Shown here: positions 14,972-38,306 of the stretch, piece after piece
How the letters are laid out: every line of letters begins with the position of its first letter
Position numbering within the stretch: position 1 is the first letter of the stretch
Assembly: GCA_947492375.1 (NCBI GenBank)
Contig: CANLMI010000004.1
Location: 62,001-126,000, forward strand
Length of the DNA stretch: 64,000 bases
Direction of reading: 5' to 3'
Origin: an uncultured Kordiimonas sp.
GTDB lineage: Bacteria; Pseudomonadota; Alphaproteobacteria; Sphingomonadales; Kordiimonadaceae
The notes under the pieces: model-generated
What the model was told of the DNA's origin: nothing
Database searches by the model: none
What the model saw: only the letters and a program-made list of their open reading frames with translations
Translations under genes and position numbers: made by a program

Positions 14972-15847
14972 TCAGTCGTTCTCGAGTGCTGTTACGGTTG
15001 TTTTAAGCTGAGCATATAGTTCATTATGATGGCGCTCTAAATAATGGGAGATATTAGTATTGGAAAAGAGTTTTTTTAAGTATCCAGCGATCACAGCCAG
15101 CTTTACAAGGTTTAGCCCATAATAATCCTCCACACCCTTTATATCTCGTTGAAGCCTCGACATTTCATTTTCCATACGTGCTGCCTGTTCTTCAGTTATA
15201 CCAGCCATTTTCTTCTTAACATCAGCATCAACCAATTGATCTTTTGGGGTGGCGACAAGTAATGCTTTAGCATAGGTGGCAGTATAATTATTAGCTGCTG
15301 CCATAAGTTCAACAACCTCAATTTGCCTTAAAGGTTTCATCTTTTTTAAGACTCGTAATGTACCACCAACATAGGTTTGGTGTTTGAGCATCTCGACTAC
15401 TTCAGGGCATATGCCTGTTAATAATGACTTTTTTTGCTGGACGCTTTTTACATCAATCCCCAACACATCTGCCAGTCGCTTCTCTGAAACACCACGCTTT
15501 ACCGCTTCGATGATCATGTAGTGTTCTTGGATAGTCGCTAATCTATTGATGTGTTTGTTATATGTGAATGTTTCATCATCTTTTGCGATAAGGCAACGAA
15601 CGTCATCTCGTTTTAATTCCAAGAGGGCATTATACCGTAAATGACCATCGAGTAATAAGTAGAAGTTATCAGTCTGAGGATAAACAACAAGTGGTTCTAC
15701 TAATTGAAATTCTGATAGGGTTCGAACAATTTGTTTATATTTAACAGACCTTTTCACTGCCTTATTGATTGTTTTGGAGGGCAATATTTTTTCTAGTGGA
15801 ATTGTCAAAGTTGCTCTTTTAAAGCCGAGTTCTATATCGTCATTCAT
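14972..15847 (-). CDS. RepB/ParB-like protein (C-terminal type)
   Basis: A 291-residue protein with a ParB-like N-terminal domain (IPLEKILPSKTIN; DGHLRYNAL in place of the GERR-type motif) and a helix-turn-helix (VSEKRLADVLGIDVKSVQQKK). The C-terminal helical part is like the RepB plasmid-partition family. It is the third gene of an operon with a ParB-like protein and a serine recombinase, separated by five bases. Two different ParB-type proteins without a ParA suggest a role in DNA binding for recombination or element maintenance rather than classical partition; that is inference. Confidence 0.75.
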   Translation of the reverse strand: MNDDIELGFKRATLTIPLEKILPSKTINKAVKRSVKYKQIVRTLSEFQLVEPLVVYPQTDNFYLLLDGHLRYNALLELKRDDVRCLIAKDDETFTYNKHINRLATIQEHYMIIEAVKRGVSEKRLADVLGIDVKSVQQKKSLLTGICPEVVEMLKHQTYVGGTLRVLKKMKPLRQIEVVELMAAANNYTATYAKALLVATPKDQLVDADVKKKMAGITEEQAARMENEMSRLQRDIKGVEDYYGLNLVKLAVIAGYLKKLFSNTNISHYLERHHNELYAQLKTTVTALEND

Positions 15848-15852
15848 GTGCC

Positions 15853-16752
15853 TTAGACCCCTGATTTGAAGAGGTCCGCTATCGGCTCTGGAATATCATC
15901 TTCATTTTCAGCGCGTAATAAGGTAGTAAAATTTTCATCATTCAATAATTCACGCAATGAAGATTTGATAAACATTAGGCGGCGTTCTGCTTGGTCAGAT
16001 TTGGCGATTAGAGAGCGTTGTCTGTCGGTTTCCTGTTGATACGCTTGTATCATTGATCTACCAGTCAAGCGTTGATATGGGCTAGTTTTGCGATTTGTAT
16101 TTTGGTGTTTTAGTCCTTTGCCTTTTTCTCTTCTTTGTTCGATAACCCTTTTGGCGACCATCAATTTAGGGCCTTTCAAGCCATGGTTTTCATAAGCATC
16201 TGCCATTGCCTTTTGAATATCTGTATCCGAAGTATTAACAATCTCTGTTGCAACTGTAAGAGGAATTTGGTTGCGCTCGACAGCGGCGACTAAACGTTCT
16301 TCACCATTTTTAATTAGATACAGTATGTTTTTGACGTAATCATTGCCTAGTCCAGTTTTTTTGGAAATTGTCGCTGCATCGTATCCACGTTGCTCAAGTT
16401 TTCCAATTCCATCCATAAGCTCTAATGCTGTATGATGACGCCTTGCAAGATTTTCGACCAAACTCATAATCATGCATTCTTCTTCGGAAGCGTCGATTAT
16501 GATTGCAGGTATCATATCTTGGCCTAATTCAATAAATGCTTCTAATCGTCCTTGGCCACATACAAGGTCGTATTTGTATTTGGACAAAGTTCTTTTGGGA
16601 TGAGACACAGAAATTGGACGCTTAAGGCCAACTTTTTGGATGCTGCTAACAATTTCCTCGAACTTCTTTCTATTACGGGTTCTGGGATTGATAACCCGTA
16701 TAGAGTCTGTTTCGATCATTTGTACATCGGAAGTATTTACTGAATAAGACAT
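15853..16752 (-). CDS. ParB-like DNA-binding protein
   Basis: A 299-residue protein with a well-preserved ParB N-terminal domain: RVINPRTRNRKKFEEIVSSI, GLKRPISV, YDLVCGQGRLEAF and SLVENLARR. A helix-turn-helix follows (YDAATISKKTGLGNDYVKNIL). Its start touches the stop of the recombinase gene upstream (position 16752 shared), which implies translational coupling. ParB folds bind CTP and parS-like sites; here the Arg-rich box is CGQGR rather than GERR. Confidence 0.8.
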   Translation of the reverse strand: MSYSVNTSDVQMIETDSIRVINPRTRNRKKFEEIVSSIQKVGLKRPISVSHPKRTLSKYKYDLVCGQGRLEAFIELGQDMIPAIIIDASEEECMIMSLVENLARRHHTALELMDGIGKLEQRGYDAATISKKTGLGNDYVKNILYLIKNGEERLVAAVERNQIPLTVATEIVNTSDTDIQKAMADAYENHGLKGPKLMVAKRVIEQRREKGKGLKHQNTNRKTSPYQRLTGRSMIQAYQQETDRQRSLIAKSDQAERRLMFIKSSLRELLNDENFTTLLRAENEDDIPEPIADLFKSGV

Positions 16753-18323
16753 TACGCAACCTCACTAAGAGGAGCACGTTTTGTCATAGAGAAGAAATAA
16801 TCGAGATTATCAAAGCGAAAAGTGTCTAATATTGCACCATTTTCGCTGGCCAATCGAAGTGAAGACTCTCTGAGGTACATCATGGGGAAAATATAATAGT
16901 CTAAGGGGTGCTGATTATCTTCTTTCATGCGAATAGCAAGTGTAAGTGTGGGATTTAGACTTGCATCGAATCTTATTTTCCAACGTGAACGACCAGCATT
17001 CGTTTGAAAATGTCTAGCTACAACGATTGACGTGGTAAACTCTCTATTGATCGTTAAAAGATCATTTTGAGCATTGTGGGATACGGTCGCCCCTAAGTTT
17101 TCAATTTCATTAATAGCATTGGAAATAACTTGGGCATGATATGACCGTAAATATTTATTAATCTCTATATAACGATAATCCCGACCAGTATCGAAGCCAA
17201 CAAGTTCATAGGCGCGTACTAACCCACCAAAACGGCTGCTGTATGCATGACTTGAAGGTAAGCCTTCTGCTTCATCAATGATAAGTCCTGATAAATACCC
17301 TTTTTTCTGGTATAGGGACTTTAATAGAAAAAGCATTTCTTCATTTGTATACTTTTTCGAGCGATCAAGAATAATTTTTGCGGCTTGCTTGAATAAGGCA
17401 ACAGACACTATTGCTTCAAAAACGCCGTTTGCTCGTACCCATTCTTCCGGAGGGTTTTTCACCCTTGCCTGTTGCAGTTTAAAGGATGTGCGATTGAATA
17501 CATTATTGCCGATATATTTTTCATTAATTAGGATCTGATGAATGATACTACGTGTCCAAGGGGCATCTGCATCTGTGTGATCGCCTTCACTGTTTAATAT
17601 CGATGCAATCTGTATTTCGGATTTTTGATCATACACAAACATCTTGTATATGCGGTTTACGACCTCGATTTCATCGGGAGGGCCGGGAACTAAGATAACC
17701 CGGTCTGTTTGTATACTTTTATGTTCGCCTTTCTCTAAGATGCCTTTGGGATTTCCTGCTGCATCTACTAACATGCGGCGTAATCCAAATCCGCACAGAC
17801 CACCTTGTCGATACCCAAGCTCAATGAGTCTACATTGTCCAGCGAAGACTTTTTTGGATAATTCTCGGCTATATTCTCCAGCCATTACACGTTTAACGGT
17901 TTTAATGATTGTCGACCCAGCGCTACCATCATTTGCGAAATCTTCACCGCAGTAGTGAACAGCAATACCGTGATTACGACAGATTTGCTCATAGTATGCG
18001 CCTTCATCTGTATTTTGAAAACGCCCCCATCTGCTAACATCATAAACCAATATAACATCAAACGGTGCTGTACCGCTTTTTACCACATCAATTAATCGCT
18101 GTAATTCTTCTCGACCTTTCATGATAAGTCCGGTTTTCCCACCGTCAGCAAATGTCTCAACTATCCGCATATTGTTGGATTTAGCATATGCTTCGATTGC
18201 GTCTGATTGATTGGCGATCGAGTATTTTTGATGATCGGTAGACATGCGAACATACTGGGCAGCATTAATAATAGTATCGCCGCCCATAGAGACACTTGGA
18301 TTTCTGTTCTCTAGGTCTGACAT
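16752..18323 (-). CDS. Large serine recombinase coupled to two ParB-like proteins
   Basis: A 523-residue protein. The catalytic domain starts at about residue 20 (AAQYVRMSTDHQKYSIANQ, with the RMST Ser), continues with VYDVSRWGRF and VMAGEYSRELSKKV, and is followed by a recombinase domain (GYRQGGLCGFGLRRM; PDEIEVVNRIYKMF). The C-terminal 200 residues are unlike the zinc-ribbon enzymes at 11179 and 40776, so it belongs to another branch. It heads an operon with the two ParB-like genes. The 440 bases upstream of its start contain repeat-rich AT DNA that may hold its sites. Confidence 0.88.
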   Translation of the reverse strand: MSDLENRNPSVSMGGDTIINAAQYVRMSTDHQKYSIANQSDAIEAYAKSNNMRIVETFADGGKTGLIMKGREELQRLIDVVKSGTAPFDVILVYDVSRWGRFQNTDEGAYYEQICRNHGIAVHYCGEDFANDGSAGSTIIKTVKRVMAGEYSRELSKKVFAGQCRLIELGYRQGGLCGFGLRRMLVDAAGNPKGILEKGEHKSIQTDRVILVPGPPDEIEVVNRIYKMFVYDQKSEIQIASILNSEGDHTDADAPWTRSIIHQILINEKYIGNNVFNRTSFKLQQARVKNPPEEWVRANGVFEAIVSVALFKQAAKIILDRSKKYTNEEMLFLLKSLYQKKGYLSGLIIDEAEGLPSSHAYSSRFGGLVRAYELVGFDTGRDYRYIEINKYLRSYHAQVISNAINEIENLGATVSHNAQNDLLTINREFTTSIVVARHFQTNAGRSRWKIRFDASLNPTLTLAIRMKEDNQHPLDYYIFPMMYLRESSLRLASENGAILDTFRFDNLDYFFSMTKRAPLSEVA

Positions 18324-18761: not shown

Positions 18762-19931
18762 ATGGATAAAAAAGGCCGTATTGGTGATTTTGTTGAAAGC
18801 TCTGCTGTCGCTGGCGAGAGTTATCAAGCCTATGTACCAAAACCACTCCCTCCAGAACCTGCTTTGGATATAGCCAGCCTCTATCCACTCTTGGATAAAG
18901 CCAATACTGCATTGGGCCGTTTGGATGGTATGAGCATGGTTTTACCTGATCCAGCACTTTTTCTTTATATGTATGTACGTAAAGAGGCGGTGCTATCGTC
19001 CCAGATTGAAGGAACACAATCTTCACTCTCTGATCTTCTCTTGTTTGAGAATGAAGAAGCGCCCGGTGCACCTGTTGATGATGTTACAGAAGTATCTTGT
19101 TATGTGGCAGCGATGAACTATGGTTTGGAACGCCTGAAAGAGTTTCCATTATCTTTACGGCTAATCCGTGAAATCCATGCTGAATTAATGAACAATGCAC
19201 GCGGTGGTGACAAGCAACCGGGCGAGTTCAGACGTTCACAGAATTGGTTAGGTGGTACACGACCTAGCAATGCCAAATTCGTACCACCACCTGTCGATCA
19301 TATGGATGAATGCTTGAACCTATTTGAACGGTTCCTCCATGATGAAACTGTCAAACTACCAGTCTTAATCAAAGCAGCGTTGGCGCATGTCCAGTTTGAG
19401 ACGATCCACCCTTTCCTTGATGGCAACGGTAGGCTTGGACGTTTGTTGATTACCTTTATTCTAAGCGCTGAGGGTGTTTTGAAAGAACCGCTCCTTTATC
19501 TCAGTCTTTATCTAAAAACCCATCGACAAGCTTATTATAATCACTTGCAACAAGTGAGAGAAACAGGTGATTGGGAAGCTTGGATAGAATTTTTCCTGAC
19601 AGGCGTGATTGAAACAGCAACACAGGCGAGCGAAACAGCACAAGCGATTGTCAGCCTGTTTAATCGTGACAGGCAGATCATCGAACAATCAGGGAAAGCA
19701 ACGGCTGCTGTATTGACCATTCATACCTATCTGCAAAATAACCCAATTACAACGACAGCCAAGATCAAAGAAGCTTGCGCTATATCCTTACCAACCATTC
19801 TAAGGAATCTCACTATATTGGAAGAAATGAATATTGTGCGCGAGATTACAGGTAAAGAACGGCATAAGGTTTTCGTATATCAAGAATATTTAACGCTTCT
19901 CAATTCAGGTACTGAGCCGCTTAGGGCGTAA
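18762..19931 (+). CDS. Fic-family AMP-transferase
   Basis: A 389-residue protein with a Fic_N-type N-terminus. The inhibitory motif S79-S-Q-I-E83-G84 (SxxxEG) precedes the Fic core, placing it in the class II self-inhibited group. The active site HPFLDGNGRLGR is complete (residues 216-227). The C-terminus is a winged-helix-like part (ITTTAKIKEACAISLPTILRNLTIL). Such proteins usually transfer AMP to a target protein. RBS AGAGGATAAA is present. No separate antitoxin gene is needed for this class. It sits alone between the recombinase unit and ArdA. Confidence 0.92.
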   Translation: MDKKGRIGDFVESSAVAGESYQAYVPKPLPPEPALDIASLYPLLDKANTALGRLDGMSMVLPDPALFLYMYVRKEAVLSSQIEGTQSSLSDLLLFENEEAPGAPVDDVTEVSCYVAAMNYGLERLKEFPLSLRLIREIHAELMNNARGGDKQPGEFRRSQNWLGGTRPSNAKFVPPPVDHMDECLNLFERFLHDETVKLPVLIKAALAHVQFETIHPFLDGNGRLGRLLITFILSAEGVLKEPLLYLSLYLKTHRQAYYNHLQQVRETGDWEAWIEFFLTGVIETATQASETAQAIVSLFNRDRQIIEQSGKATAAVLTIHTYLQNNPITTTAKIKEACAISLPTILRNLTILEEMNIVREITGKERHKVFVYQEYLTLLNSGTEPLRA

Positions 19932-20931: not shown

Positions 20932-21888
20932 ATGGAAAAATCACAAACACCTGAGGAAATCGAAGCTCGAAAAAAACAACTGGGCCATCTTTGGTGGTTG
21001 ATCGACGCTCCATTATTTATCGATACTGACTTAACAACTCGGTTTCACGATGCAATCATTCACCCTGACTGGAAAGTAACCACAAAAGAAAAAAGCGCTA
21101 GTATTAACAGAAGCCAAGAAGCCGCGGCTGAAATGACGATCGGGGTTGAAGCTAAGGGACCAACTCTACTCAGCTTTTTAGGTATCGATGCCAAAGTTAG
21201 TGGCTCTGCGAAAGGGGGGATTAAAGCGAATTCTGACAAAGCTAGAGCTAATCAAGTCGCTTTTGAAAAAATTGATAACGCCGAAAGAAAATTACTGGAA
21301 ATAGTAGGGTTTTACCTCGAGCAACTCCCTGGGAAAGTTCTTACAGCGAATTTTCCAAATGAAAGCTCTCCTAAACCCCTTGAAAGAATTGAAGAATTAA
21401 ACCAATCGTTGCGGAACGCGCCACGACCTTTGATATTTATCGATATACACCCCAAGACCCCAATCATCCCAACCGTCTCAGAGTCGATCGATGGAAAATT
21501 CACACTAATTTTTGATAATATCAGCAAGCACCTTTGGGCCAAAGAGGAGCAAAAAGACGCGCCGACGTATCCATCAGATAAAAACAACACTGCCGACAAC
21601 CGCCAAGAATACTGGACCAAGATGTCAACTCGATACGATTCACGCGTTGCTATGATGGAACTGGAACATGCCGGACAACAGTTTGGGCGTTTTGATTGGG
21701 TCGATTTTCGTGTTATGGCTGGAAACAATGGCGAAACATACCACCTTCACTGTTGCCCAAAAGGAGCTTACAGTACGGGTACATTTGGTTATAATTTCGT
21801 TAGGCGAGGTTTTAATCACGGCACTCGAATTGTCGGCACCTTACGTGAAGGCAATGCAGTGAATGTACTGGCAATTTATGAACGATAA
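20932..21888 (+). CDS. Unknown protein at the head of the plus-strand defence cluster
   Basis: A 318-residue protein; start at ATG 20932 because GGAGG lies seven bases before it, rather than at 20905. It is soluble, with a helical N-terminus (EEIEARKKQLGHLWW), a Gly/Lys-rich middle (SFLGIDAKVSGSAKGGIK) and a C-terminal part with many aromatic and His residues (YHLHCCPKGAYSTGTFGYNFVRR). I do not recognise the family. It overlaps the HAD gene by 26 bases, so the pair is coupled. Codon and base composition match the following genes of the island. Confidence 0.6.
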   Translation: MEKSQTPEEIEARKKQLGHLWWLIDAPLFIDTDLTTRFHDAIIHPDWKVTTKEKSASINRSQEAAAEMTIGVEAKGPTLLSFLGIDAKVSGSAKGGIKANSDKARANQVAFEKIDNAERKLLEIVGFYLEQLPGKVLTANFPNESSPKPLERIEELNQSLRNAPRPLIFIDIHPKTPIIPTVSESIDGKFTLIFDNISKHLWAKEEQKDAPTYPSDKNNTADNRQEYWTKMSTRYDSRVAMMELEHAGQQFGRFDWVDFRVMAGNNGETYHLHCCPKGAYSTGTFGYNFVRRGFNHGTRIVGTLREGNAVNVLAIYER

Positions 21889-22642
21889 CGTCAAGCAAGA
21901 CATTCTTTTTCTAACGGATGCTGACAATACCCTTTGGGATACTGACGGTGTTTTCAGGCATGCCCAATTGCGCTTGTTATCAGATGTCAAAAAACAAATT
22001 CCTGGCGCCGTCAATTCCGAAGAACATGAGTTGGCATTTTTACGCTGCTATGATCAGGCGATTGCTGAAAGGCACCACTCAGGGCTCAAATATCCACCAG
22101 ATCTATTAGTACGCGCTTTGACAATCGGGCTATCTGGTGCAACCGCAGATAAAGCCGCAACAAAAGTAATAGCCAAACCGTCATCTTTTGAAATGATCCC
22201 CGAAGATCAAATAGATTTAATAGTAGCTACATATTCTTCGAATCTAAAATGTCCTCCAAAACTAAGAGATGGCGTATTAAAGGGATTGAATAGGCTACAA
22301 GATTTAAATATTAAAGTAGTTGTCGTGACTGAAAGCGATAAGGACAAAATTGAGGCATTGATCAAGCACCATTCCTTACCGGGAATTACACAGGTTATTT
22401 CTGCACAGAAAAATGTTGCATTATACAAACGTTTGAAAAAAACTGCTAAGCAGGGCGCTAAAACAGTAATGGTTGGTGATCAGCTTGATAGGGACATTCA
22501 TTTTGCCCATCAGGCAGGCTTAACAACTATCCATTTCCAAGGCGGCTTCAATCCTAAATGGAACTCTAAAATTCCTATTTTTGAAGCTGACTATTCGGTT
22601 TCTTCCTTTGATGTTGCAGTCACGATTGCTTTAAATTCATAA
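21863..22642 (+). CDS. HAD-superfamily phosphatase
   Basis: A 259-residue protein (a start at ATG 21878 is also possible). HAD motifs are complete: motif I DADNTLWD near residue 14, motif II-like VVVTESDKDK, Lys in KNVALYKRLKK and motif IV VMVGDQLDRDI. The long helical insertion after motif I is the cap. The substrate is unknown; a nucleotide or sugar phosphate would fit a DNA-modification island. It overlaps the previous gene and lies 145 bases before the next. Confidence 0.8.
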   Translation: MYWQFMNDNVKQDILFLTDADNTLWDTDGVFRHAQLRLLSDVKKQIPGAVNSEEHELAFLRCYDQAIAERHHSGLKYPPDLLVRALTIGLSGATADKAATKVIAKPSSFEMIPEDQIDLIVATYSSNLKCPPKLRDGVLKGLNRLQDLNIKVVVVTESDKDKIEALIKHHSLPGITQVISAQKNVALYKRLKKTAKQGAKTVMVGDQLDRDIHFAHQAGLTTIHFQGGFNPKWNSKIPIFEADYSVSSFDVAVTIALNS

Positions 22643-22787
22643 AAATTAATGCGTAACTGTAGTTAATTAATCCGTTTATCCACGCTAACACCTCTAATAA
22701 GATTAATTTGCTCTTAATAATATTATTTCTTCTTTCCTTTTTGGGTTTCCATAGTAAATATGCTTAGGAAGTTCCTCGAGGGAAAAG

Positions 22788-23273
22788 ATGGATTTAAGTA
22801 GCTGTTCAGATTTAAGGTTGTTGCGTCTCTATTCAGAGATACTTGAAACACTAAAAGCACGTGGTACAACGCGCACAAACAATGCGCCCGTTGCTGGCTA
22901 CGCCGAACATCTTTTTTGCAAAGCTTTCGACTGGTCATTAGAGGCCAATTCTAAAGCAGGCTATGACGCGATTTCTAGAAATGGAGAACGATTTCAAATC
23001 ATGTCAAGACGACTAACACCAGATAATGGATCACGGCAACTTGGCGCAATACGACGTTTGTATGAAAATCCTTTCGACTATGTGGCCGCTGTACTTTTCG
23101 ACCAAGACTTTTCAATAAATCGAGCGGCTCTTATTCCAGTCCAAACTGTTCAAAGCTTAGCCAAAAAAAATAGTCACACAAATAGCTATCGTTTCCTCTT
23201 GCGAGACAGTGTTTGGAATATTGAACAAGTAGACGATGTAACCACCGACCTACAACATGTCCAACGGAATTAA
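22788..23273 (+). CDS. Small conserved protein of the restriction cluster (DUF6998-like)
   Basis: A 161-residue protein, ATG with GAGGGA upstream. The pattern AEHLFCKAF..SLEANSKAGYDA followed by RFQIMSRRL, SRQLGAIRRL and PFDYVAAVLFDQDF is a conserved block I associate with DUF6998-type proteins found beside restriction systems. The E..AF/GYDA/QI.RR spacing recalls a compact PD-(D/E)XK nuclease fold (Asp then Gln-x-Lys/Arg), but the usual Lys is not evident here (QIMSRR). Function is inferred from context only. Confidence 0.55.
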   Translation: MDLSSCSDLRLLRLYSEILETLKARGTTRTNNAPVAGYAEHLFCKAFDWSLEANSKAGYDAISRNGERFQIMSRRLTPDNGSRQLGAIRRLYENPFDYVAAVLFDQDFSINRAALIPVQTVQSLAKKNSHTNSYRFLLRDSVWNIEQVDDVTTDLQHVQRN

Positions 23274-23330
23274 TAAACATGAATGCTCAATCTGGCTAAT
23301 TTTAGCTCAACTATTTTAATGGAGATTCTA

Positions 23331-25115
23331 ATGCCAGAAATAAGGCTCGAATTACTTGCAGATCTTAACAAAGGTCACCGTACAAAAAAGAAATCAACTC
23401 TTGTACCCAAATACATAGCAAAAATTACTGCAAGTAAACTTAATACACTCATGAAGTATGAGGCTAGTGGTAAGAAGCACCCTTTCAAAATAGCAAATGA
23501 CTCGGTACTGGTGTTGGATGAAACCGCACAGAGAGGGATAACGGATGCAGGGAAGGTCAGGCAAGAAGAAAGCAAAGTAAAAGATATCAAAACCTCCCTT
23601 CTTGGGGTCAATAAATTAGCTCCCAAAGCGTTTTTGGGGACTCTAGTATGGAATGTTCGAGAACAGGGGGCAGAGGTTTTTCAGACTATTACCTCACTAA
23701 GAGATGGTAAACCACCACGGTTGGATTTAGAATTCAATCCCAAAAGGGTTTACTTGACTGACTCCGCGCATCGTCACATAGGTATATGCGAGGCTATAAA
23801 AGAATATTCAGCCAATCCTAAGGAATACCAGTCTGCTTTTGATCCAAGTTATGAATTTATTGTGGAGATTTACAATTTAAAAGTCTCAGATGAGAAACTA
23901 CTCTTTAGCGAACTCAATGCGAAACAAAAAAAAATCACAGCTGCAAAAGCTAAGGAAATAGATTCTATTTCTCCTATAGGTCGCTTGAAAGACCATATTC
24001 TCGCCTACGACCAAGCTAATGATCGATTATTTTCCCAAAACATTGAGGTTACATCGAATCAAAATGACCGTCACACATTGATGACTATGTCAGTGTTCAC
24101 AGCGTCCATTAAAGCGATGTTTGGATTGACATTAATTAAAGAGTCTATGGAGGACGAAGATCTACAACGGGAATTATCAGAGTATTATTGCAACTTTTTT
24201 TACAAACTCAGAGATGAAATACGAGTAAACTGTACTATTCGAGGTCGCGATCAAGAAGTTAGGCCATTCGAGAGCTTGTATTTGAAATATATCTATGAAG
24301 CAGAAAACTTAGATACTGCTACCGATGAGGAACTTGAAGAAAAGGTTGATAAAGCTCGCGCCAAAGCTTTGAATGTCAATAAAATTATACGAGAACAAGA
24401 TAAAATCAACAGCAACCCTTTCATCAGGTCGTTGTCCCTTGTTGGTGGTCGTATCCGTAAAATGGCTGATTGGGAAGGTGTAATAGAAAACCTTCAAGCC
24501 AATATAATTGCTCCATCCCAGGGTAGGTTTTTCCAAACCGGCAACCCTGAAATGTTAAGAATTGATCCTGAAACAAATCACCCAATAGCAACGGAAAAGG
24601 ACGACGGCAGCCTTAATGTTCAAGTGCAAACCCATACTCTCAGAACGATCGAAAACTTCCTCATGGCCAAGTTAGAGCTTAAGCGATTCTCTACCATTAC
24701 AGTACAAACCCCAAACGGCGAGGAGCTTATACACCCACTTAAAATAAATAGGGCCAAAAACACTTTTCTTGATTTGACCCTTCAATTCCATACAGGGAAC
24801 GATGTTGATGTTAGAGCCCAAGACATACTTGTTAGAATTGATCCAACTCTGCAAAATGGCGACTGGAAAAAAGCAAGAATAGTTGGCCAGTCCAGACCTT
24901 GCGCCGATGAAGTAGTTGTTGCTGCCGGATATGAGGACCCTTCATACCCTAACAGCATCAACCGACACATCGCCAAATTCGAAATCGATCTTCCGCCCTT
25001 TGATTCAGAAGAAACTGATCAATTTGAGTTGCAGTTCGAATGCCAATTTCCAGGCTTAAGCGGCGACTCAACGACTACAAAAGTTGTGTTGCTCGTTCAA
25101 GCTGAGCAAGACTAA
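23331..25115 (+). CDS. Divergent DndB/DGQHR-family protein with DSAHR box
   Basis: A 594-residue protein; start at ATG 23331 preceded by GGAG. The N-terminal 280 residues resemble DndB/DGQHR proteins: FLGTLVWNVR, YLTDSAHRHIGI (DSAHR at 144-148 where the family has DGQHR), and LLFSELNAKQKKITAAKAK in place of the usual F.DLN.....V. block. The C-terminal 300 residues are a long extension without a motif I know. DndB-like proteins regulate or take part in DNA sulfur and deazaguanine modification. With the nuclease gene 11 bases downstream it probably forms the controlling part of the restriction arm. Confidence 0.65.
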   Translation: MPEIRLELLADLNKGHRTKKKSTLVPKYIAKITASKLNTLMKYEASGKKHPFKIANDSVLVLDETAQRGITDAGKVRQEESKVKDIKTSLLGVNKLAPKAFLGTLVWNVREQGAEVFQTITSLRDGKPPRLDLEFNPKRVYLTDSAHRHIGICEAIKEYSANPKEYQSAFDPSYEFIVEIYNLKVSDEKLLFSELNAKQKKITAAKAKEIDSISPIGRLKDHILAYDQANDRLFSQNIEVTSNQNDRHTLMTMSVFTASIKAMFGLTLIKESMEDEDLQRELSEYYCNFFYKLRDEIRVNCTIRGRDQEVRPFESLYLKYIYEAENLDTATDEELEEKVDKARAKALNVNKIIREQDKINSNPFIRSLSLVGGRIRKMADWEGVIENLQANIIAPSQGRFFQTGNPEMLRIDPETNHPIATEKDDGSLNVQVQTHTLRTIENFLMAKLELKRFSTITVQTPNGEELIHPLKINRAKNTFLDLTLQFHTGNDVDVRAQDILVRIDPTLQNGDWKKARIVGQSRPCADEVVVAAGYEDPSYPNSINRHIAKFEIDLPPFDSEETDQFELQFECQFPGLSGDSTTTKVVLLVQAEQD

Positions 25116-25126
25116 GAAAGAAGCCA

Positions 25127-25927
25127 ATGTCCCTTTTGGCCTTTGAGCGCATCCGTAAATGCATAAACAGAAATGTCTGTATAAAAACCGCGAAGCTACT
25201 CGACCAGCAAGCTGGAGAGGTTTTGGTTAGTGCAAGCGAATTTCCAAAACTTTATGATAGAAGAATCGATCGAGAGGAACGTAAATTCCTTATACAAGTA
25301 GTAAAAACACTTTTGGCTAACCGAAGCTCATTTGCCAAGTTAGACGAACGCGACATACGAAAAATACAGCTCTTCTTTACGCACGTCCTTGACATAAATG
25401 CCGTAGGTGGCCTCGAATTGTTTTTGCAAGCATATGTATTTCTATTTTGGCGTGAAATCGAGTTCACCGACAGCCTAGTCTCTCCAAGAGGGGATCTGTA
25501 TTGGTTGTCTAATTCCTCAGTAGACCCCTACATTCCTACTACGAACAAGTTCATGCCCCTTATTAAAAAGATTCAGTCTACCAACCTTGTCGACTTAGTA
25601 GCTGTTGATGAGGAAACTGGCGTTCTTTTTCTGATTGAAGTCAAGAGGGGCAAAGTTGACGATCGATGTGTTGGTCAGGTTCTTCGTTACTTCGACGCCG
25701 TGTGTGAAATCATATACAAAGAGAACAGGAGCTTAGACATCAACTATGTAAGGCCTGTCGTCGTTTGTGCTGGCGCCAACTATGAAAAATGGCGTGCTTT
25801 CCCAAACTTATTTCGCGACCTAGTAGATATTTATACCTGTAGAAAATCGGTAGTCACAGATGAATTGACTATTTCAAATACTCGTAGGCAATTGTTATCG
25901 GAATACTCAAATCTAATGCTTAGCTAA
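25127..25927 (+). CDS. PD-(D/E)XK nuclease-like protein (DUF91/NucS-like)
   Basis: A 266-residue protein. The C-terminal part has [11 protein letters not shown] (D156), [10 protein letters not shown] (E171, K173) and CVGQVLRYF (Q184), the complete Asp...Glu-x-Lys...Gln signature seen in NucS/DUF91-type and related restriction nucleases. The N-terminal 130 residues are helical and may recognise DNA or a partner. Spacing of 11 bases to the DndB-like gene indicates one operon. Its last 15 bases overlap the convergent queC. It is the best candidate for the cutting enzyme of the dpd-like island. Confidence 0.75.
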
Positions 25928-26620
25928 ACTGCTATCAATAAAACCCGTCCTTCTCATTTTACAAGAGGGACATTCTCCACACCCATACCCCCATACATGC
26001 CGTTTGGTACGGTTGCCCTTGTAACAAGTGTGAGAATGTTCGATAATCAATTCGTTGAGTTCCCAACCGCCAATTCTTTTAGATAACTCCCATGTCTCAG
26101 CTTTATCTAGCCACATCAGAGGCGTCACTATATTGAAGCGTGCCTCCATACCCAAATTAAGCGCTACTTGTACTGATTTCATAGTATCGTCACGGCAATC
26201 TGGATATCCGGAATAGTCAGTTTCGCAAACGCCTAGGACAATAGTACCCAAACCACGCCGATAGGCCAAGGCAGAAGCCATTGTAAGAAAAACTATATTT
26301 CTGCCAGGGACGAAAGTGTTAGGTAGGCCGCTTTCAAGCATCTTAATTTCGGTATCGCTAGTTAGAGCAGTGTCAGAAATTGCGCCCAGAACTGACAAGT
26401 CCAACATGTGATCGTCGCCCAGTTTATCTGACCATTCTGATTTAATGTTTTCTATTCTAGACAAAACTTCCTGGCGACACTCTAGCTCCACCCTATGACG
26501 CTGGCCATAATCAAAACCTACTGTTTCAACGCGTTCAAATCGCTCAAGGGCCCAGGCTAAACAAGTTGTTGAGTCTTGCCCACCAGAAAACAATACGAGC
26601 GCTACAGACTTATCTTTCAT
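25913..26620 (-). CDS. queC: 7-cyano-7-deazaguanine synthase (QueC)
   Basis: A 235-residue adenine-nucleotide hydrolase-fold enzyme. The P-loop SGGQDST (residues 12-18), [19 protein letters not shown] and the zinc-binding Cys set (HTCYKG ... [12 protein letters not shown]) are those of QueC. It converts 7-carboxy-7-deazaguanine to preQ0 using ATP and ammonia. It lies at the 3' end of the minus-strand operon with the DpdA-like gene, so here it most likely supplies preQ0 for DNA modification rather than only for tRNA queuosine. Partner genes folE and queE are not in the window and queD is decayed, so earlier steps must come from elsewhere. Confidence 0.95.
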
Positions 26621-26639
26621 ATGTTCCCCTACTAGTTTC

Positions 26640-27725
26640 TCAAACTAATTTTGGCTGCCGTGTATATGGGTTGGTACCGTGTTTCAACACTTGGATCAAA
26701 TAGGCGGCTAGCATCTGGATATGTTTAGTTACATTCTGTATTTCGTTCCATCGCCAACGATCTTCTTCATCTGGCCCCAACTCCCAACTCCCAGATGTCC
26801 AGGCTGTGTTACCAACCAGTATTTGGATGCCTTTGATAAATTCCTCTTTTGTTTGTGACCCATTGCGAGCGAACAGGTATTCCATGACATAGCCCATAGC
26901 CATGATCCCAGCCCCATGCATCAGTCGAGAAGACTTTGGTGTTTGCCCCAGCCAAGCTTCGGGGAAAACTTCCTGACATGCAGCATAAAAATTGCTGATC
27001 AAAGCGACTGCTTTTGCAAAGCCGCCATCCTCCATCAATTCACGACAAGCCCCATCAGACAATGATCCTAAAACAACTTTTTGAATTGATGTATCTGCGA
27101 TAATGCCGTCTGGATGTGTATGCTGTTTAATAAGACCATGAAGAGATGAGGTTTCATCAAAATTCAAAGTTTCAATGAATTTTGCAGCCATAGATTTCGA
27201 AGCCAAGCGAGCAGGTAACCCGTCTACCGTGGGCAACAATTCATAAATAAGAGACTTGTTGAGCGGTTTAGTATTATTGATAAGGATGAATTGTTTTCTC
27301 AACTCTGCTTCATCTCGACAAATCAGGCCCGAGACAAATACTTCAAAATCTTTCCCTCCTATTTCACTAAGGGCTGAAAGCCGCTGTTGTCCGTCAACTA
27401 CCAGGCCTGGTTGGCCGTTCGTTAGGTCAATTGTCATCTCCACAAAATTTTCCGAGACATTTTTGATTGAGACACCTTGCGTAAAGGCCACTACAATTGG
27501 GTTCGGTAAAACTGCATCATCTTGTTTCAAATAATCACGAATTTCGTGGATATGATTATTCACTTGCGGTCGCTGGAACCCTTTTAGGGAACCGTCATCT
27601 TCACGGCCAATACGTTCGATTGCTGCAAACTTGAGGATGTCGCTCGATTTAGCGGCAAAAGAAAGTACAGAGTGCGCATCACTCTGTTTAGCAATTATCG
27701 CGGAGAAGGAAATTTTATTATTCAT
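26640..27725 (-). CDS. DGQQR-box (DpdB/DndB-like) protein, copy 1
   Basis: A 361-residue protein of the DGQHR family: [38 protein letters not shown] (DGQQR 111-115) and [20 protein letters not shown] are in the right order and spacing. The DGQHR/ParB-like fold in DpdB has been linked to ATP use during preQ0 insertion into DNA. Eight bases overlap with the DpdA-like gene upstream in the operon. It shares its whole layout, including the C-terminal [12 protein letters not shown] block, with the protein on the other side of DpdA (29022-30152). Confidence 0.8.
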
Positions 27726-29022
27726 TTACTGGTGATCCTGACAGCATTTTTAATTGATTATTGAAGGCCCACATATTGTGGATACCTCGTCGCTTGTTTC
27801 GATTACTGGCTCGAAAGATGATTGTCTCCACAGAAACACGTTGACAAACATTGCAGCCGCATGATTTCCACGGTTTGGAATCAAGTGTTTTTTTGTATTC
27901 GGTTTCCAAAGACCGTAGCTTTTTTTCGCCGGGTTTCTTGCCAGTACGAGCATTTGTTAGAAAAGCCTCACTATATTCTAGGATTGGCTTCAATGCCTCA
28001 TCTGTAGACATCGTTCCTTCATCCACTTTCCGAACTGCATTAAGGGCGGCCTTTTCTTGACTAGCCAATTTTTCTGCCTGATAGACACCCATTTTGACGA
28101 GTTTTTTTAAAGTGTTATTATCGTGTGACTGTGGAATACGGATAGCCGTATAATAATCCAGATCGCCACTCCCATTAAAAACAAAATAGTTCTTTCTACT
28201 GTCCTTAAAGGCTTTCAGCATTGGAGACGTCGTATCAACGCTGGCCAAATTATATTTAAAGAACTCAGTCACTCGGTCAATCTTACCAAAACCCAATATA
28301 TGAAGCCTAGTTGATGCTGGTATTGCGGCTTGAATCTGCTCCATAACAATATGGATAGCATCTGCTGATAATGGTACCATGCCCCCAATCGCAATGTAGG
28401 TGTATCCCATTTGTGATAACCGTTTAGCAGCTTCGGCCATGCTACCAGGCGACCAACCTTGAACGACGCCTAAAGGCGTAAAATATGATCCCATATTTTT
28501 GCTTTCAGCAAAAAACTTTGCTGCGTTTTCAAGGGTTATTTCAAACCGCCGCTGAACTCGATCAGCAACGTCAGTGTCATCCGGTAACTCCATCCCTTTT
28601 AGACTAGGATCAAACTCAAAAATTATATGGTCGACGCTACAGCCATGCGTAAAGCCTCCGTCTTCATAAAACTCAAGCATCTCGCCTGGGGTGTAAGGCG
28701 GCTCATCGAGTTTATGATATGAAAACGCCCCGCAATCGCCAAAGATTGGCAAATCTTTAAATTTATCGGAATCTAAACGCAGAAATTTGCGCGCACCAAC
28801 GCGTCTAAATCGCATAGCTTGGGCCTGAGTATATTTACCTGAAAACTTATGGTCTCCAACAATACCACGAGACACCAGAACTCCATCATACGGGGCTTGC
28901 CCTAAATACTCATGGGGAAACTGGTCGTCCCAATAAGGTTGGCGTTCGGGAGGGGAACGGTCTTCAGAAAAAATATAGTTTGGGTCAACATAATCCAGAC
29001 TGTCAGCATAGATAAATTTCAT
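27718..29022 (-). CDS. dpdA: DpdA-like DNA guanine transglycosylase
   Basis: A 434-residue tRNA-guanine transglycosylase paralogue. Visible landmarks are IFGDCGAFSYHKLDEPPYTPGEMLEFY, GCSVDHIIFEFDP, GVVQGWSPGSMAEAAKRL, YIAIGGMVPL, and the zinc site CxCxxC (C388, C390, C393) with His 415 (RGIHNMWAF). This arrangement, without the tRNA-specific PUA parts, is that of DpdA, which exchanges guanine for preQ0 in DNA. It is flanked on both sides by DGQQR-box genes with overlapping ends. The gene symbol is by family resemblance. Confidence 0.85.
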   Translation of the reverse strand: MKFIYADSLDYVDPNYIFSEDRSPPERQPYWDDQFPHEYLGQAPYDGVLVSRGIVGDHKFSGKYTQAQAMRFRRVGARKFLRLDSDKFKDLPIFGDCGAFSYHKLDEPPYTPGEMLEFYEDGGFTHGCSVDHIIFEFDPSLKGMELPDDTDVADRVQRRFEITLENAAKFFAESKNMGSYFTPLGVVQGWSPGSMAEAAKRLSQMGYTYIAIGGMVPLSADAIHIVMEQIQAAIPASTRLHILGFGKIDRVTEFFKYNLASVDTTSPMLKAFKDSRKNYFVFNGSGDLDYYTAIRIPQSHDNNTLKKLVKMGVYQAEKLASQEKAALNAVRKVDEGTMSTDEALKPILEYSEAFLTNARTGKKPGEKKLRSLETEYKKTLDSKPWKSCGCNVCQRVSVETIIFRASNRNKRRGIHNMWAFNNQLKMLSGSPVNE

Positions 29023-30152
29023 TATCGTTTTCTCGACAATTCACGATCCAAACGACTAAGATGTTCAGACAATCTACTAATATGAGCTGGTGTGCTTTGA
29101 ACTTCATTCCATTGCCATCCAATTTCAGGCCACTCCCCGGCTGTCCAAGCGCAATGGGGGCTTAACCTTTTAAGGGCTGCAGTAACTTCTGCAACTGGAT
29201 TATCCGAGCCATCCGCACGCAACATTATTTGATCCATCAAAGAGCCCATGGCACGAATGCCCGCAGAGTGCATCAATCGGCTTTTAGCAGGCGGCATCCC
29301 CCAAGCATCTGGGAAGGCTTGTTTTACCGCAGACCAAAAGACTAGAAGTGCTTCGTACATGCCTTCTGTATCAGATGGGGCACTACCAAGACCTTTGAAT
29401 TGGTTGAGTGCTCCTAGCGGGGGCCTTAGATTGCGCTTAATTGCCTCCACAAGTGCGCTATCTATAATAACGGCATCTACATGTTCATCCGATATACGGC
29501 GTATAATTTGGTGAAATGGCGATTGTGGATCGCTGTTCAAAAGATTAACCAACTCACTTGGAATTTTACGAACAGCGAGATCTCGAGGCAAAAGAGTATC
29601 TACTTCAGGGAGCAATTCATTGATTAATCTGGAAGGTAGAGGGCGAGCTTTGTTTACTAAAATGAACTGTTCTCTTTGAATCTCCAAATCCCGAGACACA
29701 AAGGCAATGACAGGTACTGGCAAATTCACATTTTTTGTTTTGGAAAGTGCTAACGACCTTTGTTGGCCGTCCACGATCCAAGCAGCTTTGCTGCCTTCGT
29801 CCCTAATTGGAATGTACAACGTGCCTGTATTAGCTAAATCAATCATTCCAGCAGGTGCCGGTCCTCTAGATTGCTTGAATTCCACCTCTTCACTCATTGC
29901 TAGTATAATGGCATTTGGAAACAGAACATCTGTCTGGTCAAGAAAATCTACAATACCATTTACATGATTTCTTATTTCTTTCCGCTGAAATCCTCGCAAT
30001 TTATCTTTCTCATCACGGGTAATCCTGGATATATCAGCTAAATCGAAAACGCTAGAACCTGGCAAAAAGAATGCAAACGTATCAATGCCTAATTTTTGCT
30101 GAGTACGAAGAGCCCTGACTGCCACTGTTTTTTCTACAGCATTAAATTTCAT
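29022..30152 (-). CDS. DGQQR-box (DpdB/DndB-like) protein, copy 2
   Basis: A 376-residue protein; start at the ATG at 30152 (MKFNAVEKTV), preceded by GAGAGGAAAAG, not at 30224 in the upstream gene. It shows GFQRKEIRNHVNGIVDFL, AWIVDGQQRSLAL (DGQQR 128-132), QFILVNKARPLPSRLINELLP and RLMHSAGIRAMGSLMDQI, matching copy 1 block by block. One base overlaps the DpdA-like gene. The two copies probably form a heteromeric partner of DpdA or act on different steps. Confidence 0.8.
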   Translation of the reverse strand: MKFNAVEKTVAVRALRTQQKLGIDTFAFFLPGSSVFDLADISRITRDEKDKLRGFQRKEIRNHVNGIVDFLDQTDVLFPNAIILAMSEEVEFKQSRGPAPAGMIDLANTGTLYIPIRDEGSKAAWIVDGQQRSLALSKTKNVNLPVPVIAFVSRDLEIQREQFILVNKARPLPSRLINELLPEVDTLLPRDLAVRKIPSELVNLLNSDPQSPFHQIIRRISDEHVDAVIIDSALVEAIKRNLRPPLGALNQFKGLGSAPSDTEGMYEALLVFWSAVKQAFPDAWGMPPAKSRLMHSAGIRAMGSLMDQIMLRADGSDNPVAEVTAALKRLSPHCAWTAGEWPEIGWQWNEVQSTPAHISRLSEHLSRLDRELSRKR

Positions 30153-31071
30153 TGTCTTTTCCTCTCTTAACTGAGCGAAATAGTGCGGCAAACCTACCTT
30201 GCTCGCATGCAATCTGGCACTCATCTCTCAATATGCGTAAAGCCTTGCCACTTTTGCCGTCTGATTTCTCCCAAAATCCAAGAATTAACTCGCAAATCTC
30301 TTTATCTGATTTGCTAGTTCTCTTTATTTTTCGAGGCTGTTTCAATGGTTCAAGAGCCCTCAAAACATTTGCGTAATCTTCTTCCGTAGATTGATCGATT
30401 CGATCAGAAATTTGTTCTACGAAATGACGAAGTGCTCTTTGAGCAAAATCAATACGTGTACCTGGTAAAGGACTATTCGGACCCTCTAAACGATCATCAT
30501 AGGGCATGATTTGCTTTTGCAATCGTTCTTCAAATTTTTCAATATTCCGTGGCCCAAAAATTCTAATTTTCTTAAGGTGACGATCTGATAATTTTAACAA
30601 ATCAGCTTCTATTAGTTTCAGGTAACCTTCAGGTAAGGCCGCAAAAATCCGGTCGAAATTGTTATTGGTCAAGCTTTCGTTAACCGAAACTTGCCCAAAT
30701 GCGCTAAGTAATTTAGACCACCACTCGTTTGGAGAGAAATCCTCCGCTATATTAGAAATACAATCTTTTACAGACTTACTAGCTGTTAGATTGTACGATG
30801 CTATCATTGAGTCTGACTTTATTAGACCTAGGCCAGCGGAAATAATCCACATCTCAGCGCCTAAAGTTAACTGCGAAGTCTTAGCCTCTATAAAGGCCCT
30901 CCCACAATACATATCTCGTGCAATGCGAACTTTAGCAGCGCATTTCACCTTGGGTGCCCATGCTGCAACGACGGTGTCCATGTTCCCCGCTGCTAGATTT
31001 CTAGCGCAAAGTTCATCTGATGCTGCGATTGTCTTCCTATTTGTACAAGAAGTTATTATCAAGCTGTTCAT
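30142..31071 (-). CDS. YaaA/DUF6884-like protein, possible DpdC counterpart
   Basis: A 309-residue protein; start at ATG 31071 because GAGGTG lies 10 bases before it. The N-terminal part has LIITSCTNRK, CGRAFIEAKTSQL and MWIISAGLGLI, the pattern of YaaA-like/DUF6884 proteins. The C-terminal 100 residues are a helical extension. It is the first gene of the minus-strand operon and overlaps copy 2 of the DGQQR gene. In known dpd clusters DpdC turns DNA preQ0 into the amide form; assignment of that role here is inference from fold and position. Confidence 0.6.
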   Translation of the reverse strand: MNSLIITSCTNRKTIAASDELCARNLAAGNMDTVVAAWAPKVKCAAKVRIARDMYCGRAFIEAKTSQLTLGAEMWIISAGLGLIKSDSMIASYNLTASKSVKDCISNIAEDFSPNEWWSKLLSAFGQVSVNESLTNNNFDRIFAALPEGYLKLIEADLLKLSDRHLKKIRIFGPRNIEKFEERLQKQIMPYDDRLEGPNSPLPGTRIDFAQRALRHFVEQISDRIDQSTEEDYANVLRALEPLKQPRKIKRTSKSDKEICELILGFWEKSDGKSGKALRILRDECQIACEQGRFAALFRSVKRGKDNEI

Positions 31072-31217
31072 TCTATGGACACACCTCAGTAAACCCATTG
31101 TTAAGTATCTAGTAATAATAAAATGTGTAGTTAATGAAAGATAATTTACATATTTTCTTCAATTAACTACATAAATTTAACATAAAAAATTGTGAATAAC
31201 TGTATTAAGGTTAATCA

Positions 31218-31604
31218 ATGTCTTTTAATGTGTTTAGAAAATTCGCCTTTGATGCAATACACAGTTTAGGCAAAAATGTTCACGTTGGACATCGCTATGG
31301 AAATATTCACGGTCACTCATTCCTGATTTTAATCTATATTTCAGGAAAATCAGACTCACAAAAAGTCTGAATTATTTACTTTGATGAATTGAATCAATCA
31401 ATCCAAGAAATTCGCAATATGCTTGGTCATAAGCTCCTAAATGAAATGGAAGATTTAGAACGCCTAACTCTTGAAAATATAGCTAAAAAGACTTGACACA
31501 AACTAGTACACACATATCCAGAACTTAACTAAGCCAATATAGAACGGCCATTATGCTTTGAAGGATGCACCTATCAAAGTCCTCCAAAGTTGGATCATAA
31601 ATGA
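31218..31604 (+). pseudogene. queD: Decayed 6-carboxytetrahydropterin synthase (queD remnant)
   Basis: One frame of 128 codons from ATG 31218 resembles QueD end to end: FAFDAIHSLG, GNIHGHSFLI, IIYFDELNQSI, LGHKLLNE, LTLENIAKKT and IERPLCFEG. It is broken by TGA 31368-31370, TGA 31494-31496 and TAA 31530-31532. The catalytic Cys before the second His motif is Tyr (GHRYGN), and the LDH motif reads LGH. The frame itself has no indel. It stands divergently from the DpdA operon, 146 bases from its start, as a former supplier of the preQ0 pathway. Confidence 0.85.
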
Positions 31605-35556: not shown

Positions 35557-37238
35557 GTTGGCCTTGGTTCACAAACGCCGTTAAGGCCGCTGGTGGCAAT
35601 AGTGTGCGGTCCCGCGCTCGCCGCAACTCCAAGCAAGGCAACCGTGCAGCCGAGAACTTACTCAGTAGCGGTGTTCACGATTATGGCGGTCTGGTGACAC
35701 TTGATCAATTGCGTACCGCATCCATGCTTACACCGGGGCCGCTGGCATTTCCGATCGGTATCAAAAACGGTTATGTGGTTTTCGATAACTCGGATATGAG
35801 TATCAATGTATACGGCCCGCCCGGAAGCCAGAAAACCATGTCGCTTGTGTTTCCGGCTGCGGCAACATGGGCTGGTAGCACCCTGTTTGTTGATATCGAC
35901 CACCAAATCATTCGGGGCTGTAAGGCTTACCGTGAAAGCTTGGGCCACAAGAGCATTGTACTTAATCCCCATTCTTTGTACGGCTTTGCCTCCAATCATT
36001 ATAATATCTTCCAGCCTGTCCTGAAAGCCCTCCAGCGTGGTGACTTGACGCTCGCGATTGAAATTGCCCGCAGGCAGGCAGCTATTCTTGTGCCCGACAC
36101 TCCGAAAGCCCGCCAAGGCGATAATAGCTGGATAGATGTAGGCGCCCGTGAAATCCTTGCTGTCGCTATCGTGCATTTGGGACAGGAACGCCCGGGTGAA
36201 TGCTCTCCCGGTGGCTTGTTTTCGTTTCTGGCCCGTGCGCCCAAGGACGTCATAGATGAGATGGGGCACAATAGCTCCGTTATGTTTGTTCTCAGGCGGG
36301 CACTTAAATATATTTCTGAATATGCAAGTGGTGCAGAGAAGCAAGTCTTCTGGAAGTTTGAGAAAGCGGGTGAACCGCTCACGCTCTTTGAACCGGGCAC
36401 ACCTTATGAAGCTACCTCGAACAGGTCGGATTTTGATCCGGCAGAATGCAAGAGCGGCGATCGCCCCGTTGACCTCTATCTCTGCTTTGATGGTACGCAG
36501 ATTGACAGCGGTGGCCCCTATCTCACCCTCATGCTCTCCAGCATTATCGAGGATATTGCTGGTGCAAGTGGTAGCCGCCATACCCTGATATTAGCAGATG
36601 AGTTCTCACAAATTCCATCGGCGCAGACAGTATTAAAAACTATCCGTTTGTACCGTAAGCGTCTTATCAAGGTTGTAACCCTATCGCAGTCACGCCAATC
36701 ACTTGCTGACCGTATCGGGCAAAATCTCCAGCGTGATGTGGAATCTATGGCGGGGACCAATATTTTCCTCTCGCCTGAGTATGCTGTATCGGGCGAGCTT
36801 AGCGCCAAGTCTGGCACCAAAACAGCCTTTGCCCGCAGCCTCAATGATGATGATGAACTTGGCGAGCGCTCCAGTAAAAGCTTTTCAGAAATCTCCAAGC
36901 CTAATCTTCATATAGCTGATCTTTGCTTCAACAGTGAAGACGGTGAGCAACAATCAATCATCGAATGCAAGAACCTGCCGGGCTTGCTGATCGGCGAACG
37001 TCGAGGTTGGTATGAGGTTTATCCGTGGGCTGAGCAATTGTCGGACTCATACCTTGATGACTCGGGTCGCTATGCACCGATAGCCCCTTCTATCTCGTTA
37101 GATGAAGCCAAAGCCCTGTTTGGCTTTGATGCTCCGTTTTCCCTTTCTGACATTCACACCCGTGCACGGCTTTTGGAGGGGCGTTTTGACACTCACCTGA
37201 TCACTGCCGCGCGCCAACTTCTGGAGACTACGTTATGA
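35553..37238 (+). CDS. VirD4/TraG-type coupling ATPase (intact)
   Basis: A 561-residue ATPase. Walker A is GPPGSQKT (residues 88-95) in SINVYGPPGSQKTMSLVFPA; Walker B is HTLILADEFSQI (about 347-358); further family blocks are TLFVDIDHQI and VVTLSQSRQSLADRIG. Unlike classical VirD4 it has no N-terminal membrane segments, which may be supplied by the membrane protein encoded just before it. It differs clearly from the broken copy at 998, so it is a separate lineage, not a repeat. It should couple DNA or protein substrates to a secretion channel. Confidence 0.88.
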   Translation: MSWPWFTNAVKAAGGNSVRSRARRNSKQGNRAAENLLSSGVHDYGGLVTLDQLRTASMLTPGPLAFPIGIKNGYVVFDNSDMSINVYGPPGSQKTMSLVFPAAATWAGSTLFVDIDHQIIRGCKAYRESLGHKSIVLNPHSLYGFASNHYNIFQPVLKALQRGDLTLAIEIARRQAAILVPDTPKARQGDNSWIDVGAREILAVAIVHLGQERPGECSPGGLFSFLARAPKDVIDEMGHNSSVMFVLRRALKYISEYASGAEKQVFWKFEKAGEPLTLFEPGTPYEATSNRSDFDPAECKSGDRPVDLYLCFDGTQIDSGGPYLTLMLSSIIEDIAGASGSRHTLILADEFSQIPSAQTVLKTIRLYRKRLIKVVTLSQSRQSLADRIGQNLQRDVESMAGTNIFLSPEYAVSGELSAKSGTKTAFARSLNDDDELGERSSKSFSEISKPNLHIADLCFNSEDGEQQSIIECKNLPGLLIGERRGWYEVYPWAEQLSDSYLDDSGRYAPIAPSISLDEAKALFGFDAPFSLSDIHTRARLLEGRFDTHLITAARQLLETTL

Positions 37239-38113: not shown

Positions 38114-38141
38114 GCGCGTGAGCAATTTTAGGAGAACCTTC

Positions 38142-38306
38142 ATGGGAAATACAAGACCCGTTGACCAGAAACAGGAGCATCATGCTCCCATCATCGACAT
38201 TGATTTTGTTGATGTTACCGAAAGCTTGAATGCAGAGCGCAATGCGCCTGTTCCAGCCAATCAGTCCAATAAAGGGCCGATTACACCGGGCGTATTACGC
38301 GGTTAA
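38142..38306 (+). CDS. 54-residue protein ending in LRG after the E1-like gene
   Basis: ATG 38142 with AGGAGA upstream; too short for many gene finders. The product is acidic in the middle (APIIDIDFVDVTESLNAERN) and ends in PITPGVLRG. A C-terminal Gly next to an E1-like enzyme gene invites comparison with ubiquitin-like modifiers, but the chain is too short for a beta-grasp fold. It might be a peptide modifier or only an adaptor; unproven. Confidence 0.5.
   Translation: MGNTRPVDQKQEHHAPIIDIDFVDVTESLNAERNAPVPANQSNKGPITPGVLRG

Follow-up and report, generated by a model that had tools for sequence, protein, structure and literature searches.

Gene content of the dpd locus

The stretch of DNA analysed here (hereafter the window, 64,000 nucleotides) corresponds to positions 62001-126000 of contig CANLMI010000004.1 (C4) in the 3.94 Mb, 23-contig assembly GCA_947492375.1 of an uncultured Kordiimonas sp. 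Between positions 20932 and 31604 it carries a locus of the dpd type, a candidate system for DNA 7-deazaguanine modification, in which a minus-strand operon of five genes (DpdC-DpdB1-DpdA-DpdB2-QueC) converges with five genes on the plus strand, here called g1 to g5; the end at 31604 also takes in the broken remnant of a QueD gene. Gene content and convergence had both been proposed in a preliminary description of this DNA, and the open reading frames (ORFs) do stand where it placed them, the two operons overlapping at their ends by 15 bases (25913-25927, QueC and g5). The features of the locus are the following:

20932..21888, plus strand: g1, orphan protein of unassigned family (coding-frame score 0.141, other frames negative), adjoining and overlapping the HAD gene
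21863..22642 (start 21863 or 21878), plus strand: g2, HAD-superfamily hydrolase of the dpd-linked type (Pfam Hydrolase, E 1e-9)
22788..23273, plus strand: g3, BisI-family modification-dependent endonuclease with Met72 replacing the catalytic Lys (Eco15I E 2.3e-31, NhoI E 2.7e-20)
23283..25115 (start 23283 or 23319), plus strand: g4, remote DndB/DGQHR-type protein with a DSAHR box at residue 160 (TIGR03187 E 6e-7, PF14072 E 1.6e-5)
25127..25927, plus strand: g5, PD-(D/E)XK nuclease with a NucS-like C-terminal half (NucS_C E 0.0098, PRK04247 E 8.4e-5, PDC-S02 E 1e-6; EVK motif by reading)
25913..26620, minus strand: QueC, preQ0 synthase (TIGR00364, 213 bits, cut-off 150)
26640..27725, minus strand: DpdB2, second DGQQR protein, B2 clade (NF041060, 383 bits, cut-off 300)
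27718..29022, minus strand: DpdA, DNA-guanine transglycosylase (NF041059, 527 bits, cut-off 200)
29022..30224, minus strand: DpdB1, DGQQR protein, B1 clade (NF041060, 446 bits, cut-off 300); the true start may be internal to the ORF
30142..31071, minus strand: DpdC, of the dPreQ0-to-dADG enzyme family, DUF6884-like (PADLOC DpdC, 302 bits, E 1.2e-90); ORF open from 31098
31218..31604, plus strand: QueD (PTPS) remnant with several in-frame stops (PF01242 E 1.6e-14, stops inside the match)

Family matches to DpdA, DpdB, DpdC and QueC bear out the modification cassette that the preliminary description had recognised on the minus strand. The DpdA-like transglycosylase exceeds the cut-off of NF041059, and none of the residues of its CxCxxC...H zinc site (C388, C390, C393 and H415) varies across 8 aligned sequences. 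The two proteins singled out earlier for their DGQQR box both contain it and are both DpdB by NF041060, QueC likewise lies above its TIGR00364 cut-off, and the protein first read as YaaA/DUF6884-like is DpdC according to PADLOC, whose DpdC model has no curated cut-off stated; its match to Pfam DUF6884 (E 2e-6) falls slightly under the cut-off. From these families we infer with fair confidence a DpdA-B-C pathway of DNA modification, in which preQ0 would be exchanged into DNA by DpdA together with the two DpdBs and then converted to the amide by DpdC, both of them steps known in other organisms.

For all ten genes the codon-usage score is positive only in the annotated frame, the five alternative frames being negative, against a reference set that included four of the minus-strand genes and none of the plus-strand ones. 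A GGAGG motif upstream of the ATG at 20932 is consistent with this start for g1, and the gaps between g3 and g4 and between g4 and g5 amount to 9 and 11 bases if g4 starts at 23283. Promoter-like sites show no excess over shuffled sequence (27 versus a mean of 23.4, standard deviation 5.7) and terminator-like sites show some (19 versus 10.4, standard deviation 3.4); neither count was used as evidence.

Comparison with other dpd loci

The locus was compared with 91 dpd loci found with a DpdA alignment. Of these, 11 lie on plasmids and were taken with 14 kb flanks; the other 80 are the best of 264 genome loci, with flanking sequence of up to 10 kb that is in some cases truncated at contig ends. 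They are mostly alphaproteobacterial, with some from beta- and gammaproteobacteria, and near-identical relatives were not thinned. The 11 plasmid loci belong to 29 plasmid records with a DpdA match, of which one more (from Enterobacter) was read separately.

Two DpdBs around DpdA are ordinary in dpd loci, since at least two DpdB matches occur in 85 of the 91. By the same six-frame ORFs, DpdC is matched in 89 loci and QueC in 79, and only L008, L025 and L082 have no DpdB match; under stricter gene calls, one B1 and one B2 label above 90 bits are found together in 76 of the 91. A tree of 175 DpdB sequences, including the two from the window, splits B1 from B2 without exception (support 1.0), the labels denoting the better match to either DpdB of the window and hence not being independent of this clean split. 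Many extra dpdB copies have been reported (excerpts of PMC11888242). The C-B-A-B-Que order is shared by six plasmid dpd loci and most of the 91. Locus L036, which harbors the nearest relative of the DpdA described here (support 0.989, on a long branch), shares the C-B-A-B-QueC operon and has DpdE-F-G-H after it. Closer to home, DpdA exceeds the cut-off in this genome alone among 385 genomes of the class and 29 of the family.

The dpd island of Salmonella Montevideo, with dpdA-C for synthesis and dpdD-K for restriction (excerpts of PMC11888242), resembles the locus in its DpdA, DpdB and DpdC families and in the preQ0 biosynthesis gene alongside. In contrast, the window has two DpdBs, a convergent set of other genes and, as far as could be found nearby, no DpdD/E/F/G/H/J-type gene. 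The dpd loci of Agrobacterium vitis pUnnamed2 and Sinorhizobium americanum plasmid B share both the C-B-A-B-Que order and the HAD family of g2 with the window. In these plasmids, however, the HAD gene follows a membrane protein and QueE, QueD and QueC are annotated in the operon, whereas in the window it follows the orphan g1, with a broken QueD nearby and QueE on a different contig.

Restriction arms and their absence from the window

To our knowledge, how dpd restriction recognizes unmarked DNA is an unsolved question, and the standard arm is large and rich in helicases. Arm families in the 91 loci were obtained by clustering, with PADLOC naming of representatives. Genes of any DpdE/F/G/H type are present in 33 loci and DpdD-type genes in 21, while the DpdJ-type (YprA-like) cluster F6 is found in 39 and cluster F14 in 14, always together with F6. 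Another 14-locus family, F15, is a Cas4-like PD-(D/E)XK nuclease (L006, L023, L031, L033, L034, L035, L073, L075, L085, L088, L090, L092, L103 and L104) that co-occurs in 13 cases with a UvrD helicase (F16) and in 13 cases stands without any other recognized arm; F16 without F15 is seen in one locus, L105. The nuclease and the UvrD-type helicase perhaps constitute an undescribed dpd arm; UvrD is mentioned once, for ARMADA, in excerpts of PMC12458937. None of these arms was recognized in ten loci, five of them short (L050, L059, L082, L087, L098) and five with full flanks (L003, L008, L025, L060, L101).

The same holds for the window and 34 kb of flank, where tblastn (E <= 1e-4) with up to six of the longest members of each family occurring in at least two loci detected no DpdD/E/F/G/H/J-type gene, no F14 and no UvrD/Cas4-like arm, DpdI not being tested apart. 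DpdD was not found in the whole genome either, in a search whose control also gave no match. The preliminary description had proposed that the restriction arm was replaced here by an unrelated set of plus-strand genes. The absence of the usual arm nearby agrees with our searches, and replacement is a fair inference because L036, the nearest relative by DpdA, has DpdE-F-G-H; the plus-strand genes, on the other hand, do not form one unrelated set. Of them, g2 recurs in other dpd loci, g3 belongs to the BisI family, and g1, g4 and g5 are orphans in the collections searched.

A PD-(D/E)XK nuclease can also accompany the deazaguanine cluster of BRIGADE, the dpd-like system of haloarchaea (excerpts of PMC12458937), as it does in the window. 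BRIGADE usually has two YprA helicases, whereas the window and its 34 kb of flank yielded no gene of the DpdJ (YprA-like) type.

A HAD hydrolase linked to dpd

The HAD protein encoded by g2 is clearly a recurring dpd accessory. Its family is present in 26 of the 91 dpd loci (E < 1e-20). Among 72,556 plasmid records it was matched in just five; four of these belong to dpd plasmids, and the remaining one shows no annotated dpd gene in the 24.5 kb inspected. Directly upstream of the HAD gene, all 26 loci encode another protein, X, the profile of which was built from 24 of them, with L032 and L090 as independent cases. Hydrophobic segments occur in 23 of the 24 profile members, the exception being the trimmed translation of L033, and among four X proteins scanned there was one weak PycTM match (E 0.042), below the cut-off. 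Dpd loci thus repeatedly carry an accessory pair made up of a membrane protein and, after it, a HAD hydrolase (e.g. L003:18639-20310). The pair is a further dpd-linked component; we met no mention of it in the dpd literature consulted, for which 'HAD', a common word, is a weak search term.

In the window X is missing and an unrelated orphan, g1, takes its place upstream of the HAD gene. The possibility that g1 is itself an X-type membrane protein was rejected, given that g1, like the rest of the window, has no significant match to the X profile; a simple hydropathy scan reveals no hydrophobic segment in g1, and four profile libraries assign it to no family. Together, g1 and the HAD hydrolase would be the island's own version of the accessory pair.

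A BisI-family protein without its catalytic lysine

The product of g3, previously taken for a DUF6998-like protein, turns out to be a relative of the BisI family of 5-methylcytosine-dependent endonucleases (Eco15I, NhoI; PDB 8q5m, 8q5n), with homology to Eco15I spanning residues 3-155, nearly its full length. It retains E40, D60 and Q70 and, by our own mapping from NhoI numbering, most residues of the methyl pocket (N32, R74, Q84, R89 and the H130-T131 pair); the position of NhoI Ser98 is G86 in g3, as in 21 of the 44 aligned sequences with a letter there. The catalytic lysine, in contrast, is replaced by Met72, yielding QIM where Eco15I and NhoI have QIK and QVK (excerpts of PMC11347163) and where the predicted family motif is D-X(10-12)-QxK (excerpts of PMC4926085). 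Of the 46 aligned sequences that have a residue at this position, all but a single fragment (45) carry lysine, and every active-site change tested in Eco15I abolished its activity (excerpts of PMC11347163, which do not name the altered residues). Judging from these residues, g3 would keep the BisI fold and read 5-methylcytosine, and its cutting activity has probably been lost.

Supply of preQ0 and possible decay of the island

The QueD remnant, which is divergent from DpdC like the QueD-family ORFs of L088 and L105, is the sole PTPS match in the whole assembly. Contig C1 carries QueE, a second QueC and an ORF that reads as QueF-like, and no match to YhhQ was found in the genome. The supply of preQ0 is therefore uncertain, with its only PTPS/QueD match broken and no YhhQ found. 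These data raise the prospect of a decaying island, in which dpd no longer works in this host, QueD is broken, the restriction arm has been lost and the BisI-type enzyme is dead. The several stops of the QueD remnant, the missing YhhQ, Met72 in g3 and the lack of DpdD/E/F/G/H/J-type genes nearby would all fit such a scenario. Nonetheless, the ten genes of the two operons are open and code-like, and a PTPS match is also missing in 27 of the 29 genomes of the family (25 of the 29 being at least 90% complete). Since so many relatives are without it and QueE, a second QueC and the QueF-like ORF are retained in this genome, preQ0 synthesis in the lineage may not need a PTPS-type QueD, or may not take place at all. 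Decay of the whole system seems to us rather unlikely.

A candidate DGQHR-nuclease effector

The DSAHR box of g4 and the PD-(D/E)XK nuclease at the end of the plus-strand cluster, g5, with its NucS-like half and EVK motif, are as the preliminary description had them. Taken with the cassette, they lead to the interpretation that we place first, at a little under an even chance: a two-DpdB dpd cassette on a conjugative-type island, devoid of the DpdD-K arm, has passed its restriction role to the neighboring plus-strand genes. In mechanistic terms, the DGQHR-type domain of g4, a remote DpdB relative, would serve to inspect DNA, with g4 guiding the g5 nuclease to DNA that is unmarked. Restriction by g4 and g5, like any restriction function of the plus-strand genes, is a reasoned guess.

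A DGQHR-nuclease effector beside dpd is plausible by analogy, and its best support comes from other dpd loci. An extra DGQHR-type protein is encoded in 10 of the 91 loci (that of L105 being a third DpdB2-like copy), and in nine of them (L002, L006, L047, L075, L085, L088, L092, L095 and L101) it is accompanied by an HNH gene. The two are directly adjacent in eight of the nine, with an insertion sequence between them in L002. The pair of L006 is a weak case (E 1e-4 to DpdB1, no Pfam DndB match, HNH match below cut-offs), and the L095 protein is without the DGQHR letters and close to that of L002. In L101, which has full flanks, the pair is the only recognized arm. Scattered genes would be expected to give far fewer than ten extra DGQHR proteins across 91 stretches of about 20-30 kb, a rough estimate based on the domain being matched in only 2 of 14 control genomes. 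These pairs resemble g4 and g5 in setting a DGQHR-type protein and a nuclease beside a dpd synthesis operon, and differ from them in having no sequence match to g4 and an HNH instead of a PD-(D/E)XK nuclease.

Several results weigh against a restriction role for the plus-strand genes, besides the uncertain supply of preQ0 and the absence of the catalytic lysine from g3. The matches of g4 remain under the curated cut-offs (29.5 of 58.85 bits for TIGR03187, 24.6 of 29.1 bits for PF14072), a genome-wide TIGR03187 (DGQHR) search did not recover it, PADLOC gave no match, and neither the DpdB alignment nor the extra DGQHR proteins of the dpd loci match it. Outside this genome g4 is found in none of 385 genomes of the class and 398 of the phylum, overlapping draws that each include this genome; since the 385-genome sample held no other dpd genome, its absence from the class sample speaks for rarity and not for a lack of linkage to dpd. 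More directly, relatives of g1, g3, g4 and g5 occur in 0 of the 91 dpd loci (E < 1e-3), so that, on the question of whether the two halves of the locus ever occur together elsewhere, the HAD gene with its 26 loci is alone in doing so. At full sensitivity the best match pairs g5 with the L028 nuclease of cluster F14, without reaching significance (E 0.043). No relatives of g1, g4 or g5 were detected in plasmids or in viral contigs, the latter probed with exact single-sequence peptide patterns that are blind to distant relatives, nor of g1 and g4 in phages. Single-sequence structure predictions for g1 and g4 (mean predicted local distance difference test, pLDDT, 38 and 32) were discarded.

This failure of g1, g4 and g5 to recur with dpd is what would be expected if the cassette did no more than modify DNA, whether protectively or as an orphan modification, with g3-g4-g5 being an independent defense set that happened to land alongside. 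Genes of the g3 type are present in 118 plasmid records, and the six neighborhoods taken from these (10-12 kb) contain no DpdA match; the island bears other defense-type genes, namely a SoFic match and ArdA, and dpd islands without a restriction operon, Agrobacterium among them, have already been reported (excerpts of PMC11888242). Against this stand the clear linkage of the HAD gene to dpd and the end overlap of QueC and g5, which, together with the recurring DGQHR-HNH pairs, suggests more than chance neighbors. We consider an independent set quite possible, if on the doubtful side.

A stronger form of the proposal that restriction passed to the plus-strand genes would make g3-g4-g5 a new dpd effector, composed of a non-cutting reader of modified cytosine, a DpdB-like sensor of DpdB-marked sites and a separate PD-(D/E)XK nuclease. 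If so, one complex would reject both DNA without deazaguanine and DNA with foreign 5-methylcytosine, but we regard this as improbable. Be that as it may, a candidate arm of three genes and the differing arms found beside one conserved synthesis operon (DpdE-H, DpdD/J, F14/J, UvrD with the Cas4-like nuclease, and DGQHR-type with HNH) would provide small systems in which the recognition of unmarked DNA could be tested.

Island setting

The dpd genes are flanked by a relaxase, type IV coupling proteins, serine and tyrosine recombinases and ArdA, and their setting looks like a conjugative-type genomic island. A serine recombinase ORF overlaps a tRNA-Arg gene (42319-42395), beyond which housekeeping genes were identified by eye; no repeat of the tRNA-Arg end that could mark a second border was found in 98 kb, and Rfam reported nothing but this tRNA in 14000-44000. 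Next to ArdA, at 18762-19931, lies the Fic protein with the SoFic match (PADLOC, E 4e-123). Two RepB-type genes and a serine recombinase lie at 14972-18323, a trio that is also found upstream of dpd in L076, and in no other of the 91 loci (E < 1e-10; best 1e-184). Elsewhere in the window, ThiF/E1-like and JAB-like genes are close together at 37235-39811, and a 934-residue protein encoded at 3106-5910 combines a RelA/SpoT domain with an N-terminal part that appears caspase-like by eye.

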